This document shows positions 7,663 through 38,324 of a stretch of DNA of 51,085 nucleotides, one piece after another. The number at the start of each line of letters is the position of its first letter. Position 1 is the first letter of the stretch. The position numbers and the translations under genes are program-made. The stretch comes from an uncultured Bacteroidota bacterium. GTDB taxonomy: Bacteria > Bacteroidota > Bacteroidia > JABEUT01. The DNA lies in NCBI GenBank assembly GCA_903916255.1, contig CAIWVW010000013.1, positions 1 to 51,085 of the forward strand, given 5' to 3'. Under the pieces are notes generated by a model, which worked only from the letters and a program-made list of their open reading frames with translations, was not told the DNA's origin and made no database searches.

Positions 7663-8658
7663 CTATTTATTAAAGTGTAACCACAAATCGTTTTCGCTTT
7701 CCACTTCCTTTAAAAGGTCTTTATTAACAGCATTGGTTGCAGTGGAAACGTAAGTAACTATGGTCCCTCGGTCATATACATTGCTTACTCTCCATCTATC
7801 AACTCTAAAGCAACCGAAAATAAAAACATCGTCCAAATTTTGGAGATACGAAGGCATATCTTGAGGGGTGAGTTTTACTTGTGCCAAATATTTCCGAATA
7901 TCGGGAAAATATACGCTGAATAAGTCTGTAGTATCCTTTGGGCTGGTTTTATATACAACAAGAGGTGTTACAAAAAGAGGCCGTTCATCGGAAACAAAAC
8001 GGGAGTTATCAAAAATAAAATCTGATTTTATTCTGAAACCAACCAAGCTAAATTTGGTGCTATCAATTAGCGAAGAATCGCTTGTTGCCAAATTAAGCCG
8101 CATGGAATAGGTATCATCTTCGTCTCCTTTCTTACTTAAATAAAGTGAGATATTTTTTTTCCGGGCATTTGAATAAAGAATATTAAAAAGTGTTTTGCAA
8201 TCGAATAATAATTGAGGTGTACCTGTATAAAAACATTTGAAATTTCGTTGCTGGTAAGTACACATTCTTTCCTGCAAAAAATAATATTTCCATTCGCCAA
8301 GGTTGTCACGTTGTAGTGTATAAACTGGTTTGTCAAGTAAGGGAATTGGGCCATCTGATGAAACTGTAGGTACTATTTGCTTATATTCTAAAGGATTACT
8401 ATAAATACATTTCACTCTCAATTTTCCGGTAGAATCCCAAACGCTCCATTCTCCAATTCGGGTGTTGTATGCAAATGTCCCCTCTGATTTTTTAGTTCCG
8501 TTCTTAAAAAAGGATTCATAATGCCCATCCAGCATTCCCGATTTTAGTTCGTACTTACTGTTGAATTCTTTATCCTTATAGGTTTTTGATTCAGGCTGTG
8601 CAAAGGCTGACGTGGCAAGCAAAAGCACTACACATGTAATGGATATTTTATTCAACAT
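7663..8658 (-). CDS. GldN/PorN-like exported protein with N-terminal MORN-type repeats
   Basis: 331 residues from Met at 8658, chosen because a clean signal peptide (MLNKISITCVVLLLATSAFAQ) starts there; the frame is open to 8700. Residues about 30-80 (SGMLDGHYESFFKNGTKKSEG, then IGEWSVWDSTGK; the second splits the first from its neighbour) are MORN_2/YwqK-like repeats. The rest follows the layout I know from GldN/PorN of the type IX secretion system: an LFNILY segment, then FRIKSDFIFDNSR, then FSVYFPDIRKYLAQ, LDDVF, SNVYDRG and final EVESENDLW. GldN is a periplasmic ring protein that works with the lipoprotein GldK. The gene just upstream is GldK-like. GldL/GldM partners are not here, so this looks like an accessory paralogue pair. 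The homology call is by eye. Confidence 0.6.
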   Translation of the reverse strand: MLNKISITCVVLLLATSAFAQPESKTYKDKEFNSKYELKSGMLDGHYESFFKNGTKKSEGTFAYNTRIGEWSVWDSTGKLRVKCIYSNPLEYKQIVPTVSSDGPIPLLDKPVYTLQRDNLGEWKYYFLQERMCTYQQRNFKCFYTGTPQLLFDCKTLFNILYSNARKKNISLYLSKKGDEDDTYSMRLNLATSDSSLIDSTKFSLVGFRIKSDFIFDNSRFVSDERPLFVTPLVVYKTSPKDTTDLFSVYFPDIRKYLAQVKLTPQDMPSYLQNLDDVFIFGCFRVDRWRVSNVYDRGTIVTYVSTATNAVNKDLLKEVESENDLWLHFNK

Positions 8659-8684
8659 ATTCAGAAGTTTCAATTCCGTGCGCA

Positions 8685-9548
8685 TTATTTCAAGCCCCAA
8701 CTTTTCAGAATTTGTAAATCTATGCTTGGTTGTTGATTTCCGCCTCGTTCAAAATTAGCAGTATCAACGGGTTCTTTAATAACTCTGAAAGCCACTTGTC
8801 TGTATCCCTCATAAGAATAACCGAAAATTCCGGCATAGTCCGCCAGATTCTCAAATTTAAAGAGATACGAATCTCCAATAAAACACTTTCGCTTTAGAAC
8901 ATGGGGTTCATTTTTACCTGCGAAGCGTATATAATCAAAATAAGTCCAGTGATTAGTGCTGGTGGTTTTAATATGGTCATTAGCATCCTCATCATACGCA
9001 TCAAGCAACCAATCGGAATAATTTTGGTTAAAATCATTTTTGATGGATGCTGCCTGCAAATAATTGTAAGCATCCAGCCATTCCGATTCACTGGGCAAGC
9101 GGCAAATGAATGTAATAGCTTCTTTATTGTTGCTTGCAGTTATCCATCGGCAATAATTCATTGCAGCTTCCCAGGAGATGCCTACTACCGGAAAATCATC
9201 GTAATTATTTCCGGAAATGTATTCTTTATAATTTTCGGGCAAACATATGGCGGTATCAGGCATCTGCGATGAATAAAATTTACCGGAAGAATCTTTTTTA
9301 ATTGCCTTTAAATATTCTTTGTACTGTCCGAATGTAATCAGGGTGCTGATTTCAAAGGCATCCATATCCAGTTTAATAGAAGTTGGAGCCTTGCTATTCG
9401 AATAACCAAACTCCGTTGAGCGTGGCCCAAGTATTTTGAATGGGTCTATAGTTTGTTTTGGGATTTTGTAGAGATACTGTGCAAAGGCAGAGTGGTAAGT
9501 TATAAGTGATAAGAGATAAGCGACAAATAGGAATTTAAAATATTTCAT
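8685..9548 (-). CDS. GldK/SUMF1-like (FGE-sulfatase domain) exported protein
   Basis: 287 residues from Met at 9548 (MKYFKFLFVAYLLS...AFAQ, a signal peptide); the frame is open to 9587 but that would run into the adenosyltransferase gene. The body has formylglycine-generating-enzyme-fold motifs: FEISTLITFGQYKEYL, DDFPVVGISWEAAMNYCRWI, FICRLPSESEWLDAY and terminal YRQVAFRVIKE. GldK and GldJ of the type IX secretion/gliding machinery share this fold without catalysis. Unlike GldK there is no lipobox cysteine after the signal peptide. The GldN-like gene follows 26 nt downstream, which argues for a joint role. Part of the signal peptide is encoded by a 7-nt tandem repeat. Confidence 0.65.
   Translation of the reverse strand: MKYFKFLFVAYLLSLITYHSAFAQYLYKIPKQTIDPFKILGPRSTEFGYSNSKAPTSIKLDMDAFEISTLITFGQYKEYLKAIKKDSSGKFYSSQMPDTAICLPENYKEYISGNNYDDFPVVGISWEAAMNYCRWITASNNKEAITFICRLPSESEWLDAYNYLQAASIKNDFNQNYSDWLLDAYDEDANDHIKTTSTNHWTYFDYIRFAGKNEPHVLKRKCFIGDSYLFKFENLADYAGIFGYSYEGYRQVAFRVIKEPVDTANFERGGNQQPSIDLQILKSWGLK
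9495..9522. repeat. 7-nt tandem repeat inside a signal-peptide coding region
   Basis: Four imperfect 7-mers on the plus strand: GTAAGTT, ATAAGTG, ATAAGAG, ATAAGCG. On the minus strand they encode part of the hydrophobic core (AYLLSLITY) of the signal peptide of the GldK-like protein. Confidence 0.7.
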
Positions 9549-27498: not shown

Positions 27499-28272
27499 TT
27501 AATGTTTGAATCTTTCATGATTATGATATTTAAGAAATTCAACATTCGGTAATGACCTGTAAGGCATTATCATTGGCTTGTTATCGTATCTCAAAAAATA
27601 TTCTTGAATGACTGTATCTTTACTTTGTTTTTTCAAAATGGACGAAATCTTTATTTTAAAATCAGGAGTTATTGTTAGTAATCCGTTTTCAAATGCTTTA
27701 TCATGCAAGGCATTTATGGCAATTCCATTCTGGTAATTTAATCTGTTCTTTTCGTCAATACTCCAAGGTTTTATGTGTCCTGCAATTAAAAATTCGGGTT
27801 GTTTAATTCCTGTTATGCAGCAAGTATTATCGTAAGAAGCTAAAATGAAACTTCTGAAAAGTGCTTGATTTACCCTTACTTTGACTATACGCTCCCTCAT
27901 TTTACCTTCTTTTGGCAATTCATTTTCAGGAATATCAAATAGTTTTTCGACAGTTGTATGCTCCAGTTTTGCAAGTAATTTCTCGCTTTCATAAGGAACT
28001 TCATCTGTATGGTGAAAATATTCATGCCATATTACTTCATCCAACTTACTCGCGTTCGATGCTCCTTTGATTCCTCTTGCTTTTTGAACAGGGTCAATAC
28101 TTGCAAAGTTTACAAGTTTGTAGGCAACAGCACCAGAAGTTCTTCCAATAAGTTTAGCAAGATGTATTACATCCGGATTGCGCTGATGTAATCGACCAAA
28201 AGTTAGTTTGCTATAAAGATTAATCGTTAAAATTAATTCTTCCCGCGTCCACAATTTTTCGCCTTTTTTCAT
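27499..28272 (-). CDS. HNH endonuclease (HNH_2 type)
   Basis: 257 residues. The C-terminal domain has CCITGIKQPEFLIAGHIKPW (His166) and NGIAINALHDKAFENGLLTI (Asn183, His190), the beta-beta-alpha metal HNH core of PF13391. The N-terminal half (TREELILTINLYSKLTFGRL) resembles a helix-turn-helix or specificity region seen in putative restriction endonucleases. No methyltransferase is encoded nearby, so it could be a modification-dependent or solitary nuclease. It overlaps the upstream zinc-ribbon gene by 4 nt. Confidence 0.87.
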   Translation of the reverse strand: MKKGEKLWTREELILTINLYSKLTFGRLHQRNPDVIHLAKLIGRTSGAVAYKLVNFASIDPVQKARGIKGASNASKLDEVIWHEYFHHTDEVPYESEKLLAKLEHTTVEKLFDIPENELPKEGKMRERIVKVRVNQALFRSFILASYDNTCCITGIKQPEFLIAGHIKPWSIDEKNRLNYQNGIAINALHDKAFENGLLTITPDFKIKISSILKKQSKDTVIQEYFLRYDNKPMIMPYRSLPNVEFLKYHNHERFKH

Positions 28273-28645: not shown

Positions 28646-29017
28646 CTAAAATTCTGCGGGGAGCTTAAACAGGGTTTTATCCAGTTTTGCTTTTTTAAGG
28701 CTGCATTCCCAAAGGGTAATAACCTTCCATCCGGCTTTTTTTAAAAGCCTTTTGTTTTTTGTGTCGTGCTGCTTATTGGTGGTAATTTTATTCAGCCACC
28801 ATTTTGTTCTGGTTTTGGGCACCACAAAGTATTTGCATCCTTTGTGCCCATGCCAAAAGCACCCGTGTACAAATATTACAGTTTTGTATTTTGGTAAAAC
28901 AATATCCGGTTTCCCTGGCAGGCTTTTATCATGCAGTTTAAAACGGAATCCTTTTGAAAACAGAAATTTACGGACTAGAAGTTCAGGTTTCGTATCCTTA
29001 CTCCTAATCCTGCTCAT
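28646..29017 (-). CDS. vsr: Very short patch repair (Vsr) endonuclease
   Basis: 123 residues from Met at 29017 (MSRIRSKDTKPELLVRK). A longer frame starts at 29062, but a TATCTTTG box overlaps that codon. Motifs: GFRFKLHDKSLPGKPDIVLP with catalytic Asp38, VIFVHGCFWHGHKGC with zinc/catalytic His and Cys, and ending LLKKAGWKVITLWECSL. Vsr nicks beside T:G mismatches that arise by deamination of 5-methylcytosine. The usual partner, a C5 cytosine methyltransferase, is not in the window. Confidence 0.93.
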   Translation of the reverse strand: MSRIRSKDTKPELLVRKFLFSKGFRFKLHDKSLPGKPDIVLPKYKTVIFVHGCFWHGHKGCKYFVVPKTRTKWWLNKITTNKQHDTKNKRLLKKAGWKVITLWECSLKKAKLDKTLFKLPAEF

Positions 29018-29059
29018 ATTATAGCTTCTAACGCTATGGAATGCACATCGGCCATAATG

Positions 29060-29067
29060 CAAAGATA
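29060..29067 (-). promoter_or_regulatory. -7 box TATCTTTG for vsr
   Basis: TATCTTTG followed by CATTATGG on the minus strand. It covers the upstream ATG (29062) and so places translation at 29017, with a leader of about 35 nt. Confidence 0.6.
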
Positions 29068-32810: not shown

Positions 32811-33935
32811 TTATTTCCCATTCTGCGCCTTATTCCTCAAATAATGGTCCATTAAAACCAAGGCAGCCATTGCATCTACAATAGGTACGGCCCTTGGTAA
32901 AACGCAGGGGTCGTGGCGGCCTTCAACAGATAGTTTGGTTGCTTTTCCGGAACGGGTAACGGTGTTTTGTTCCAGCGCAATACTTGCCACAGGCTTAAAT
33001 GCAACTCGGAAATAAATATCTTCTCCGGTACTGATTCCACCCAAATTTCCTCCGGAATTGTTGGTTTTAGTGGTGATATTTTTCTTTTTGTCGGTTGGGT
33101 AAGATTGCTTCGTTCCTCGCAATGACGAGAGGACAAATTCGTCATTATGATCGCTGCCACGCATGATAGAGCCACCAAAGCCGGAGCCGAAATCAAAACC
33201 TTTTACAGCATTGATGCTTAACATGGCTTTACCTAAATCAGCAGGAAGTTTATCGAATACAGGTTCGCCTAATCCGGCGGGAACATTGCGTATCAGGCCG
33301 CGAATAATTCCACCAACGGAATCACCTTCCGCACGGACTTGTTCAATTAATTTTAGCATTTTATCTGATGCATTTTTATCTGGGCATCTTACCAAACTTG
33401 CATCTATCGCTTTTGAATTAATCTTTTCAAGGTCAATATCTGCACGGATTGTACCAATTTGCACAACATGACTCAAAAATTCCACGCCGCATTTTTCTTT
33501 CAAATATTTTTTAGCAATAGCACCTGCGGCTACACGTGCCAATGTCTCCCTTGCGCTTGCCCTTCCACTGCCACGCCAATCACGGATGCTATACTTTAAA
33601 TCATACGTATAATCCGCATGGGACGGGCGATATAGGTCCTTTATTTTTTCATAATCTTTCGGGTTGGCATCTTTATTATATGCCATCAGCATGATGGGAG
33701 TGCCGGTTGTTTTCCCATTAAATACACCCGATAGAATATGGATTTTATCTGCTTCATTCCGTTGCGTGGTAATTTTGCTTTGTCCCGGTTTACGCCTGTC
33801 TAAATCCGGTTGTATATCCTTTTCAGATAAGGCTAATCCGGGTGGGCAGCCATCTACAATTACACCAATTGCTTCTCCATGTGATTCACCAAAAGTGGTA
33901 ATACGAAACAGTTGTCCGAATGAATTGCCCGGCAT
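32811..33935 (-). CDS. aroC: Chorismate synthase with in-frame repeat insertion
   Basis: 374 residues. Family motifs TTFGESHGEAIGVIVDGCPP, YRPSHADYTYDLKYSIRDWR, GSGRASARET and SIMRGSDHNDEF. It makes chorismate from EPSP using reduced FMN. Between HNDEF and ITTKTNNSGGNLGGISTG there are about 15 extra residues (about 269-283, with SLRGTKQS) that correspond to the palindromic repeat family found at 49881 and 50899. The reading frame stays open, so the gene may be functional. It is the last gene of the shikimate operon, 3 nt after aroD. Confidence 0.95.
   Translation of the reverse strand: MPGNSFGQLFRITTFGESHGEAIGVIVDGCPPGLALSEKDIQPDLDRRKPGQSKITTQRNEADKIHILSGVFNGKTTGTPIMLMAYNKDANPKDYEKIKDLYRPSHADYTYDLKYSIRDWRGSGRASARETLARVAAGAIAKKYLKEKCGVEFLSHVVQIGTIRADIDLEKINSKAIDASLVRCPDKNASDKMLKLIEQVRAEGDSVGGIIRGLIRNVPAGLGEPVFDKLPADLGKAMLSINAVKGFDFGSGFGGSIMRGSDHNDEFVLSSLRGTKQSYPTDKKKNITTKTNNSGGNLGGISTGEDIYFRVAFKPVASIALEQNTVTRSGKATKLSVEGRHDPCVLPRAVPIVDAMAALVLMDHYLRNKAQNGK
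33098..33128. repeat. Palindromic-repeat arm inserted within aroC
   Basis: Core AAGATTGCTTCGTTCCTCGC followed by AATGACGA on the plus strand, matching the arms at 49881-49913 and 50954-50985. It lies in the aroC reading frame and encodes the SLRGTKQS stretch. Confidence 0.9.
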
Positions 33936-33938
33936 AAT

Positions 33939-34619
33939 TTATTTATTTAAATAGTTAAAAATCGGTTGCAGGTCCCTTTCTTTTAGCATTCCCGGTGCAA
34001 TATTTTTTGCTCCGCTCATAGTTACATACGCTATATAACTTCCTGCTGGGGGAAAGGTGAGGCGGGTAACTTCCCCTTTTTTGCCCATACCAATCACGAC
34101 TAATTTTTCGCCCCGCATCCGTTTCCTTAAAAGAGATGACAACGTAGGTACATCATACATTTTTTTAACATAGGTGGCTATTTTAATGACAGCAGGATTC
34201 ATAGAGCGCATGTGGTTCAATAGCTTTACCAGTTCAGTAATAGCGGGTGTTCCTTCATGGTTATGATATGAGAGGAGGAGTTGTTTTTTTTGTTTTGCAT
34301 CCAATTTATTAATTACCCGATTGCCCATCGCAACATCCACATACGTGAATCCGGAATTAAATGCTTTTAAAATAATATCCTGTTGGTTTGTCATCGAACC
34401 TGTATATAAACCACCTTCGTTAAGATGCCTGCAGGTAAATATGCAAGGGAGTTTTACCAGACCCTCAATAATCGGAATATCTTCTACACTAAAATCCTTA
34501 ATGGAGTCAACACGGAGTTCAATCATGGACGCGGTTTTCTGCGCCTTCTTCAGGTTCCTTACAAAAGTTTCAAGGTTTTTACCCTGAATAACCGTGCATA
34601 TTTTGAAATCCTTATTCAT
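33939..34619 (-). CDS. aroD: Type I 3-dehydroquinate dehydratase
   Basis: 226 residues. Class I (Schiff-base) motifs: MIELRVD, SYHNHEGTP with catalytic His119, and PAVIKIATY with Lys146; MGKKGEVTRLTFP near the end. It dehydrates 3-dehydroquinate to 3-dehydroshikimate. It overlaps aroE by 4 nt, and aroC follows 3 nt later. The class I type is also the one in eukaryotic AROM. Confidence 0.94.
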   Translation of the reverse strand: MNKDFKICTVIQGKNLETFVRNLKKAQKTASMIELRVDSIKDFSVEDIPIIEGLVKLPCIFTCRHLNEGGLYTGSMTNQQDIILKAFNSGFTYVDVAMGNRVINKLDAKQKKQLLLSYHNHEGTPAITELVKLLNHMRSMNPAVIKIATYVKKMYDVPTLSSLLRKRMRGEKLVVIGMGKKGEVTRLTFPPAGSYIAYVTMSGAKNIAPGMLKERDLQPIFNYLNK

Positions 34620-35428
34620 TTGTATAACGCTTCCCTCATGGCTTCTTCCGGGGCTTTCAATCCTGTATATAATTCAAATTGCAATTTCCCTTGTTGTAAA
34701 AGCATTTCCAATCCATCAATTACAATTGCTCCTTTTTGCTTTGCCAAATTTAGCAATTGTGTGCCTCCTTTTTTGTAATTCACATCAAATATAATGTGCT
34801 TCTCTGTAATATTTTCAACTGATATTGGACTTGCATTATCTTCTCGCCCAATTGGGGTTGTATTAATAATTATATCCGCGTTTGTAGCTTCATTCCGGTT
34901 TTCCCAGGGGTAGACTTTGCATTCATACTGTTCTGCAATATTTTCGGCTGTAGTTTTGTTTCTGCCGTATAATATTACTTGTGAACCTTCTTTTGAAAGC
35001 CCATAAACAATGGCACGTGCAGTGCCACCGGAGCCAAACACAGCAACCTTTTTATTTTTCAGTGAAGTACATTTTAATAAAGAATTGATTGCGCCTTTCC
35101 AATCGGTATTATAACCCTTTAGTTTTCCATTTGCATTTATTACAGTATTCACCGCACCAATTACTTTGGCAGTTTCATCAATTTCATCCATGTATTTTAT
35201 AATAGCCTCTTTATGGGGAATGGTAACTGCAAAAGCGCAAATATTCGGAGCGCATAATTCATTTTGCATGGCAAAACCAAGTTCTTCAGGTTTGATTTGC
35301 TTCGCTAAAAATATATACTCCGAATCAATTCCTAAAGCCTTATATGCCGCGTTGTGCATAGCAGGAGATAAGGAATGTGAAACTTTGTCCTTAATTACAA
35401 AACATATTTTCTTCTCGCTACTTTGCAC
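34616..35428 (-). CDS. aroE: Shikimate dehydrogenase
   Basis: 270 residues. Substrate pocket SHSLSPAMHNAAYKALGID, catalytic Lys in AVTIPHKEAI and Asp in GYNTDWKG; NADP Rossmann motif VAVFGSGGTARAIVYGL; final KQGKLQFELYTG-like segment QQGKLQFELYTG. It reduces 3-dehydroshikimate to shikimate. It overlaps the aroA-aroK gene by 11 nt and aroD by 4 nt, indicating translational coupling. Confidence 0.96.
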   Translation of the reverse strand: MQSSEKKICFVIKDKVSHSLSPAMHNAAYKALGIDSEYIFLAKQIKPEELGFAMQNELCAPNICAFAVTIPHKEAIIKYMDEIDETAKVIGAVNTVINANGKLKGYNTDWKGAINSLLKCTSLKNKKVAVFGSGGTARAIVYGLSKEGSQVILYGRNKTTAENIAEQYECKVYPWENRNEATNADIIINTTPIGREDNASPISVENITEKHIIFDVNYKKGGTQLLNLAKQKGAIVIDGLEMLLQQGKLQFELYTGLKAPEEAMREALYK

Positions 35429-37229
35429 TTTTCAAAGTTATTTTAGATGCAATAATATTCGCTATTTCAGCGGGAGTTAATGTGTCTGTTTGAATTACCT
35501 CATCGGCATATTGCGTGTATAGTGGCAAACGTATTTGGTAAAGCAGGTTTGCCATCATTTCATCTTTGAATAATGGGCGGGAATCAGTACTATTCAACCG
35601 TTGTTTAATAGTATCGAATGAAGCTGCGAGGTAAATTATTTTGCCATGTTTTCTCAATGCTGCAATGTTATCATAATTCATAACAACACCGCCGCCACAG
35701 GAAATTATTACCCCTGTTTTTATAGAGGCTGCGGTAACAGCCTTGTTCTCTAATTGACGAAAATGAGTCTCACCATGATTTTCAAAAATTTCACTGATAC
35801 TTGCTAGCCCCGATAGGGCGAGGGTTTCCGAGTCAGTCTCAATTAAGGGTAACCCTGTCTGCTTAGACAATAACTCTGCAATAGTAGTTTTTCCGGCACC
35901 CATATAACCAATGAGCACAATATTCATAGGCTTTTCTGCCAGTTGAGTTTTTAATCCTGTTTCTCCAAGTTTTTGCCAGAATTCAGGAAATGATTTACGT
36001 ACAACTTCGGGCGATTCAATTTGCATACCCGGAATTTTTGCGCCTGCAATTGCAAATGCCATTGCCATCCTATGGTCGTTGGAAGTGCGGATTAGCGCCC
36101 CATGTGGCTGCCCTCCGCGAATCATGATGTGGTCTGCCCCAATGGTAGATTTAATACCCATCCGGAGGAGTTCTTTTTGAAGTGCTGTTAATCTTTGGGC
36201 CTCTTTCAGTTGAAGGTTTTTCACTCCGGTAATCATTGTATCTTCATTGGCAAATGCCGCTACCACAGCCAGAGTCTGCGCCACATCCTGCATATGTTTC
36301 ATATCCGCCGTAATACCGCGCAACTCATTTGTCCCAGTCACTTCTATGTAATTTTCACCATTGGTAACTTTGCAACCCATTTGTTCCAACAAGCCTGCAA
36401 ATTTCACATCGCCTTGTAAGCTTGATGGAGAAATATTATTTACCCGAATAGTGCTTTGAGTAATTGCCGCTAATGCAAAAAAATAAGATGCGGAAGAAGC
36501 GTCTCCTTCAATTGCATAATTTGTTGGCTTATATATAGAGCCCGCTTTAATACTATGTTTTCGGGGGTTTGCTTCAACATTTGCTCCAAACTCCTTCATG
36601 GTTGAAATCGTCATTTCGATATACGGTGCAGAAGCAATTTCGCTTTCTGAAATTATTTCCAGATCGGAATTCAAAACAGGGGCAATCATTAGTAATGCAG
36701 AAATAAACTGGCTGCTGTGCGATGCATCCATTTTAACTTTACCGCCTTGCAGATTTCCTCCTTTTATTTTTAATGGCGGGCAACCGGATTCACCTAAATA
36801 AGTGATATTGGCGCCTAACTGTTTAAGCGCATCTACAAGCCCACTGATGGGCCGCTGATGCATACGCGATGAGCCTTCCAATATAATTTCTCCCGGAATA
36901 ATGCAGCATAATGCAGTGAGGAAACGCATAACGGTTCCCGCATCTTCCACATCTATTTTTCCATGAAACTCTTTAAATTTTCCGCTATTCCCCTTTATGG
37001 TAATCAGGTCTTTTTCCACGGATATATCTATACCAAATAATTTAAGTATATTTATCAGAAGTAAACTATCATTTGAATTTGAATAGCCTGTTAAAGTGCT
37101 TATGCCATCTGCCAGCGATGCAATAACCAAAGCCCTGTTTGTGAAACTTTTTGAGCCGGGAACATGTAGTTCGGCTTCAATAGGGCCGGTTAAAGGATAT
37201 ATGTCTGCAATGCTCCTTACCAAACTCAT
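35418..37229 (-). CDS. aroA-aroK: EPSP synthase-shikimate kinase fusion protein
   Basis: 603 residues in one frame. Residues about 12-425 are 3-phosphoshikimate 1-carboxyvinyltransferase: VPGSKSFTNRALVIASLADG, LEGSSRMHQRPISGL, EGDASSASYFFALAA, RTSNDHRMAMAFAIAG and VVRKSFPEFW. From Met435 a complete shikimate kinase follows: MNIVLIGYMGAGKTTIAELL (Walker A), ETDSETL, HFRQLENKA, ISCGGGVV and RPLF. The linker is about 10 residues (GLKTQLAEKP). The fusion covers steps 5 and 6 of the pathway, although kinase acts before EPSP synthase. The gene begins 3 nt after aroB. AroA-AroK fusion recalls the central part of eukaryotic AROM. Confidence 0.96.
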   Translation of the reverse strand: MSLVRSIADIYPLTGPIEAELHVPGSKSFTNRALVIASLADGISTLTGYSNSNDSLLLINILKLFGIDISVEKDLITIKGNSGKFKEFHGKIDVEDAGTVMRFLTALCCIIPGEIILEGSSRMHQRPISGLVDALKQLGANITYLGESGCPPLKIKGGNLQGGKVKMDASHSSQFISALLMIAPVLNSDLEIISESEIASAPYIEMTISTMKEFGANVEANPRKHSIKAGSIYKPTNYAIEGDASSASYFFALAAITQSTIRVNNISPSSLQGDVKFAGLLEQMGCKVTNGENYIEVTGTNELRGITADMKHMQDVAQTLAVVAAFANEDTMITGVKNLQLKEAQRLTALQKELLRMGIKSTIGADHIMIRGGQPHGALIRTSNDHRMAMAFAIAGAKIPGMQIESPEVVRKSFPEFWQKLGETGLKTQLAEKPMNIVLIGYMGAGKTTIAELLSKQTGLPLIETDSETLALSGLASISEIFENHGETHFRQLENKAVTAASIKTGVIISCGGGVVMNYDNIAALRKHGKIIYLAASFDTIKQRLNSTDSRPLFKDEMMANLLYQIRLPLYTQYADEVIQTDTLTPAEIANIIASKITLKSAK

Positions 37230-37232
37230 GGC

Positions 37233-38324
37233 TTATTTCAGGATATAATCGAGTCCTTCGTCAATAATTTCATCAGGCAGCAGAATATCCACTTTTACAT
37301 TTCCAATATCTTCGAGGAACACCCATTTTATTTCGTGATGCGAATTCTTTTTATCGAACAATATCTTATTCAGAACTTCAATTTTATTGAGGGACTTAAT
37401 TTTGTCAGGCAGTTTGGCTTTGCTGATTAAATTTTCAATATCCCTCAATTTATTTTCCGGCAAATACCTTGACAGGAAAGACATTCTTGCTTCCGCAATC
37501 ATGCCAAGGGCGATAGCTTCCCCATGCAATAAACCTCCTTTGCTGGCCATTTCAATTGCATGGCCGACCGTATGCCCAAAGTTTAATTTCTTGCGCTCTT
37601 TCTTTTCATAAGGGTCTTTGCGGACAATCTCACATTTTATATTGGTGGATTGTTCGAGTAGGGGCACAATATATTGTGCCCTATTAGCAGGCGAGCTAAA
37701 ATTTGTATTCAATAAATAATCAAAAAGTCCATCGCCGGTGATAACAGCATGTTTAATAATCTCTGCAAAGCCCGAGCGGTATTCGCGTTGCGGAAGTGAA
37801 GAAAGAAAAGATGTATCGCTGATGATTGCTATGGGAACTGCAAAAGTACCAATCGTATTTTTTAATCCGTTAAAATTAAAACCGGTTTTCCCTCCAATGG
37901 CAGCATCAGCTTGGGCAAGCAGGGTAGTGGGTACTTGCACAAAATCAATTCCGCGCATATAGGTGCTTGCTGCAAAAGCTCCTACATCGCAAACCATGCC
38001 TCCTCCAATATTTATAACGAGGGATTTCCTGTCAAATTCCTTTTTAGAAAGCGTAGCCCAAATTTTTTCCGCGGTAGCAAGTGTTTTGTTTTTTTCGCCA
38101 GAGGGTATAGTAATGGAAAAGGTATTTTCACCAAGAACCTTGCGTATCCTATCTGTCCAATGGCGTGCGACATTTTTATCTATAATGGCTAATACAGAGG
38201 AATATTTTTGCAAATCAATTATAGAATTAATTTCATCAAAAATATTTACACCAATGTATATCGGAACGGTAGTTTTTTTGCCCGCAACAGAAAGAGCGAT
38301 ATGTTCCATTTGCGGTGTTTTCAT
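37233..38324 (-). CDS. aroB: 3-dehydroquinate synthase
   Basis: 363 residues. Motifs SITIPSGEKNKTLATAEKIW, NIGGGMVCDVGAFAASTYMR, FVQVPTTLLAQADAAIGGKT and the metal-binding KLNFGHTVGHAIEMAS. It converts DAHP to 3-dehydroquinate with NAD and a divalent metal. It follows the DAHP synthase gene by 12 nt and precedes aroA-aroK by 3 nt. Confidence 0.97.
   Translation of the reverse strand: MKTPQMEHIALSVAGKKTTVPIYIGVNIFDEINSIIDLQKYSSVLAIIDKNVARHWTDRIRKVLGENTFSITIPSGEKNKTLATAEKIWATLSKKEFDRKSLVINIGGGMVCDVGAFAASTYMRGIDFVQVPTTLLAQADAAIGGKTGFNFNGLKNTIGTFAVPIAIISDTSFLSSLPQREYRSGFAEIIKHAVITGDGLFDYLLNTNFSSPANRAQYIVPLLEQSTNIKCEIVRKDPYEKKERKKLNFGHTVGHAIEMASKGGLLHGEAIALGMIAEARMSFLSRYLPENKLRDIENLISKAKLPDKIKSLNKIEVLNKILFDKKNSHHEIKWVFLEDIGNVKVDILLPDEIIDEGLDYILK

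Follow-up and report, generated by a model that had tools for sequence, protein, structure and literature searches.

The stretch of DNA analysed here (the window; 51,085 nucleotides of a contig from an uncultured Bacteroidota bacterium) carries on its reverse strand two neighbouring genes, which we call K2 and N2. K2 (8685..9548, ATG at 9548) is an intact open reading frame encoding a short GldK homologue of 287 aa, exported and non-lipidated, which consists of a signal peptide (AFA/Q), an FGE-like core, a GldK-type VR4 segment and a C-terminal xLKxWGLK tail. After a spacer of 26 nt between the K2 stop and the N2 start (8659..8684, same strand) follows N2 (7663..8658, reverse strand, ATG at 8658), likewise intact, which encodes an exported GldN homologue of 331 aa. 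Its N-terminal part holds a MORN_2/YwqK-type repeat region (8374..8571, reverse strand, approximately residues 30-95; Pfam MORN_2) and is followed by the GldN-homologous region (7690..8256, reverse strand, residues 135-323), which includes FRIKSDFIFDNSR as its PorK-docking turn; the end of the C-tail E-x-D-L-W lies shortly after this region. An earlier sequence-only reading had described a GldK-like exported protein with a GldN-like one 26 nt further on. Frames and spacing are as described there, and the N2 motifs which it quoted (FRIKSDFIFDNSR, FPDIRKYL, LDDVF, SNVYDR and ESENDLW) were all found.

The same reading had placed the pair apart from GldL, GldM and GldJ. This holds for the locus, as none of the three was found among the ORFs scanned in the window, but not for the genome, in which GldK, GldL and the beginning of GldM lie on contig C46, the end of GldM and GldN on contig C127, and a GldJ on contig C12 (GldL and GldM were identified by position and by eye). 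Elsewhere in the window, EPSP synthase and shikimate kinase are encoded by one fused ORF of 603 aa (35418-37229) within a run of aromatic-biosynthesis genes (32811-38324), and a Vsr mismatch endonuclease lies close to an HNH endonuclease (28646-29062 and 27499-28272), perhaps as a restriction-modification remnant or island.

K2 matches the FGE-sulfatase family of Pfam with E=4e-13. Against the GldK model TIGR03525 it scores 45.6 bits, which does not reach the equivalog cut-off of 350, and the GldJ models score lower; TIGR03525 matched all ten members of family A5, with a best E of 3.5e-18. A K2 family profile reached the PorK structures with E=4e-17, compared with 0.4 at best for true FGE enzymes. 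An identity as a plain sulfatase-modifying enzyme was rejected, since the site holds no catalytic cysteines and the closest solved structures are those of PorK; window K2 has cysteines after the signal peptide at positions 102, 133, 149 and 222 only, with none in the C-terminal GxS region. AlphaFold models of K2 and N2 (7 sequences) were of low confidence (pLDDT 54 and 59), and a fold search with the K2 model returned the FGE/EgtB superfamily in general. In the tree, all K2 form one clade with a support of 100/100, apart from GldK and GldJ. The match of the family to PorK and the shared VR4 segment show a common descent of K2 with PorK/GldK, though as a separate clade.

The FGE-like core is common to K2 and the PorK/GldK proteins (TIGR03525; 9ots, 9mzu, 9myj, 9p6h), together with the motifs PDT, YDDYPVVGxxW..A..FCxW, RLPxExEW and, in VR4, NxYDExxYDF...DPPVLKRK, and K2 also resembles them in being encoded directly beside a GldN homologue. 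However, K2 has 287 aa instead of about 480, carries an extra WGL tail, is not encoded with gldL/gldM and is without the lipobox, InsH and the VR3/RGCF client loop. When aligned to 11 canonical GldK sequences, every K2 is devoid of the lipobox, of the segment from RDS to YPDT and of a block containing RGCF and FKPMRGSYxDDGG. The missing lipobox, already pointed out for the window's protein, thus extends to all 11 K2, several of which have a Sec/SPI-type cleavage site followed by Gln. The RDS-to-YPDT segment comprises about 10 aa in K2 versus about 150 aa in PorK, and because the PorK H-helix N70-L89 (PMC12421860), which is NAQYRQFVYYVRDSIIRERL, fixes the numbering on the alignment, it can be assigned to InsH (R81-P230), the bridging element of PorK self-association (PMC12421860). 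By placement on PorK, the third missing block comprises VR3, on which the PorN C-tail docks (PMC12421860), and the client-bonding cysteine; PorK Cys356 or GldK Cys343 is disulfide-bonded to PorG or SprF (PMC12635249). GCF is present in 11 of 11 canonical GldK examined and in no K2. The FGE domain by which PorK docks PorN (PMC12421860) is represented in K2, whose VR4/VR5 region is kept and includes the GldK-type VR4 segment absent from other short FGE proteins.

GldJ, the FGE-like lipoprotein of the gliding track, resembles K2 in having little or no InsH but possesses large insertions of its own, of which K2 has none. An assignment of K2 to GldJ instead of GldK was rejected for this reason and because the GldJ profile scores K2 lower overall than the GldK profile. 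Short exported FGE-like proteins of the Bacteroidia (e.g. L083, L087, L088) also are without InsH, show the PDT motif and have a length similar to K2; unlike K2, they keep the central FGE block and have neither a GldK-type VR4 segment nor a GldN-like neighbour. We observed such proteins of about 290-330 aa, with GldK-like motifs, in several Bacteroidia families (L080, L083, L087, L088, L089 and L092). For most K2 members a profile of short InsH-less FGE proteins scores above the GldK profile, so that InsH may never have existed in K2, and its absence, being common to GldJ and other short FGE proteins, need not be a loss. To say that K2 "lacks" InsH would be safer than to say that it was "lost".

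The GldN/PorN identity of the downstream gene, which had been set as a test, is well borne out. N2 matches Pfam GldN (PF19841) over residues 135-323 with E=2.4e-13 and 50.8 bits (cut-off 23), and the model matches 12 of 12 N2 family members; the score against the GldN equivalog TIGR03523 is 21.1 bits, below its cut-off of 85.9. A PDB search with the single N2 sequence gave nothing useful, but the N2 family profile reached the PorN structures with E=1e-13, and a fold search with the low-confidence N2 model returned the PorN crystal structure 7pvh as best match (E 6e-4, probability 1.00). In the tree, the N2 proteins likewise group in a single clade apart from GldN, with a support of 100/100. 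As to the proposed MORN_2/YwqK repeats, window N2 scores 26.1 bits against MORN_2 (PF07661), slightly below the cut-off of 29.6, but E<=0.01 is reached by 9 of 12 proteins of the family. With a mean N2-N2 identity of 0.52 over its core, the MORN region ranks with the best conserved of the N2 segments compared.

N2 shares with PorN/GldN/GldO (PF19841; 7pvh, 9ots, 9mzu) the GldN fold, the KEDxFFDxxR turn, LDDVF, SNVYDR and the E-x-D-L-W tail. It differs from them by the missing DLREKINxPLYYP loop and central insert of GldN and by its N-terminus, where the alignment shows the MORN domain and a linker in place of the PorN-type helix; in addition, it is encoded outside the gldKLMN operon, at a locus made up of K2-N2 alone, with the canonical operon on other contigs. 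Helix 25-37 of PorN binds a PorK groove that includes InsH (PMC12421860), so that the lateral lock is missing on both sides, from N2 with the helix and from K2 with InsH. The docking turn KEDxFFDxxR, in contrast, shows an N2-GldN identity of 0.47, as high as that among N2 (0.46); it corresponds to PorN F156-D162, whose contact with PorK lies near VR4 and VR5 (PMC12421860). PorN A241 is a crosslink site to PorM (PMC12421860) and maps, by our own placement, to the N2 motif SNVYDRxIxxY. This PorM-contact motif (ESNVYDRxIxxY) is kept in about 10 of 14 N2 and lost in G003, G004, G005 and G352. As K2 has no VR3 and yet the N2 tail is kept, either the contacts must be different ones or the tail is there for another partner; its retention would agree with N2 docking on canonical GldK, or with a contact of a new kind.

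In addition, weak GldN-domain matches (2e-4 to 1e-11) were seen in proteins of about 180-390 aa that are exported or resemble lipoproteins, including a tandem of two (L189:3689-4855; L190:2-1150 and 1216-2364 in G010; L191:4145-4711 and L192:4203-4739 in G073), which possibly form another branch of the GldN fold that has gone unrecognised. Among the open-licence papers searched on GldK/GldN with MORN, on paralogues, on GldO and on PorKN structures, none describes a pair such as K2-N2. The closest known precedent is GldO, a plain GldN paralogue encoded beside GldN in F. johnsoniae.

Altogether 11 K2 loci were found in several Bacteroidia families, each adjacent to N2 or fused with it. Conserved adjacency elsewhere, on which the sequence-only reading had staked its proposal, is thus seen in all ten further K2, nine of which lie directly 5' of N2 and the tenth of which is fused. 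The distance from stop to start is 26, 8, 1, -1 or -7 nt, and -4 nt in five genomes. The pair is present in 5 of 11 genomes of the window's genus, several of which are just 50-70% complete. Outside the genus it was found in G028, G086 and G739 and in the GenBank MAGs UBA4660 and ES-bin-35, always in the order K2-N2. It is rare, with K2 in 3 of about 385 genomes of the class sample outside the window's genus and, in a 395-genome sample of the phylum, in the window's genome only. The flanking genes vary by lineage with the K2-N2 order kept, and among them no operon partner is conserved across lineages and none encodes T9SS machinery. Three N2 (in G047, G073 and G150) have no K2 neighbour, suggesting that N2 may act alone; those of G047 and G150 (L126:575-1567 and L234:4806-5726) lie near genes for a thioredoxin-like protein and a membrane protein of 705-708 aa. 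As to whether such genomes also hold a canonical set, which had been asked, all carriers that are at least 84% complete have full-strength canonical GldK and GldN, and the window's genome has gldKLMN. In G003 and G004, which are about 60% complete, no canonical GldK or GldN was found.

In G352, K2 and N2 are encoded by one ORF of 579 aa, which retains the MORN region and has no internal signal peptide; the genome has a separate GldK-GldL-GldM-GldN run. In other genomes an overlap of 4 nt separates the two reading frames, and a frameshift artefact was considered and rejected because the second signal peptide is gone from the fused frame. By the gene-fusion argument, such a natural fusion suggests that the two products share a compartment and cooperate there at 1:1, for which it is the best single piece of evidence. 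The same genome encodes a second large GldK-like protein of 644 aa with TGCF (L196:3286-5220).

Pairwise distances of K2 and N2 are correlated (r=0.79, Mantel p 0.0005), to which shared species history contributes. Between G000 and G010, K2 and N2 show 59-61% identity, compared with 93% for GldK and 80-96% for the flanking genes. Their dN is about 0.28-0.29 with dS saturated, which indicates purifying selection without allowing an exact ratio to be stated. A pseudogene reading was rejected on this ground. The large missing segments and the fast divergence are what a functionless, decaying duplicate of gldK and gldN would show, but the grouping of each protein in one clade across families, the intactness of the ORFs and an order kept amid changing neighbours, besides the purifying selection, make this reading hardly credible.

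Homology, separate clades, conserved gene order and one natural fusion show K2 and N2 to be a two-gene unit whose members are paralogues of GldK and GldN, subunits of the T9SS/gliding machinery. As their genes stay together across distant Bacteroidia and have been fused once, the products very probably form a partner complex, and the kept order, overlapping genes, natural fusion and correlated divergence speak for the "alternative complex" that had been put forward as one option. We infer with fair confidence that this complex is soluble, periplasmic and 1:1. Both proteins would be exported as soluble periplasmic proteins and would join as a heterodimer via the retained surfaces, VR4/VR5 of K2 and the KEDxFFDxxR turn of N2. 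With neither InsH nor a lipid anchor on K2, the dimer would not extend into a PorKN-type ring or a GldK track, and with no RGCF cysteine it would not carry PorG or SprF by disulfide. The MORN domain would provide a different binding site on the dimer. In a weaker step, the dimer might attach to the canonical GldKLMN machine and act there as an end cap, an adaptor or a brake, an accessory subunit that does not propagate. We argue this from the canonical set kept by the carriers and from the PorM-contact motif and the PorK-VR3-binding tail, mostly kept by N2; a role as accessory of the T9SS/gliding track is put forward with low confidence. Taken as a whole, the explanation of K2-N2 as a soluble periplasmic heterodimer, not a ring, and probably accessory to the track, is one that we hold tentatively, at somewhat short of even chances.

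A complex independent of the T9SS, in which the docking geometry of GldKN is reused, the MORN domain binds a target of the envelope (for example peptidoglycan, lipid or a surface protein) and the motor is not contacted, would account for the lineage-specific neighbours with no T9SS machinery among them, for a K2 with neither a client cysteine nor a lipid anchor nor the ring domain, for the high conservation of MORN and for the fast divergence of the pair between G000 and G010. The PorM-facing motif of most N2, the kept GldN C-tail and the canonical GldK and GldN of every carrier at least 84% complete sit poorly with it, and we regard it as a rather unlikely but serious explanation.

That both subunit types are retained as a pair and that about 10 of 14 N2 keep the PorM-contact motif might instead be taken to mean that K2N2 build a ring or filament of their own, which is joined laterally by another contact and has the same GldLM motor as its drive. 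This is the "specialised ring" suggested earlier, and it is disfavoured: all K2 lack the PorK-PorK bridge InsH, N2 lacks the PorN N-terminal helix and a lipid anchor is absent, which makes it unlikely. K2N2 could also be internal subunits of the canonical GldKN(J) track, placed at intervals as spacers or markers and not as caps. The N2 tail would then find the VR3 on which it docks in PorN-PorK, as canonical GldK has VR3 and K2 has not, and GldJ, a known track component, likewise has little InsH (PMC12421860). K2, however, has no lipid anchor and none of the GldJ insertions, and the GldK profile scores it above the GldJ profile; we consider internal subunits decidedly improbable.

The GldKN ring was solved lately and redefined as a moving track which carries outer-membrane clients by disulfide. 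Against this background, K2-N2 is a natural separation-of-function variant, which has no ring-bridging domain, no anchor and no client loop but keeps part of the partner contact, and it could show which parts of GldK and GldN make the complex and which make the track. More speculatively, and with considerable doubt, the soluble heterodimer may be an unrecognised regulatory unit, which as a client-less dimer would cap or end the mobile GldKN(J) track or take the place of a track subunit at the motor, thereby setting track length, ends or load, with the MORN domain bringing in a lineage-specific partner. K2-N2 may thus point to a regulator of the track or to a second use of the GldKN architecture.
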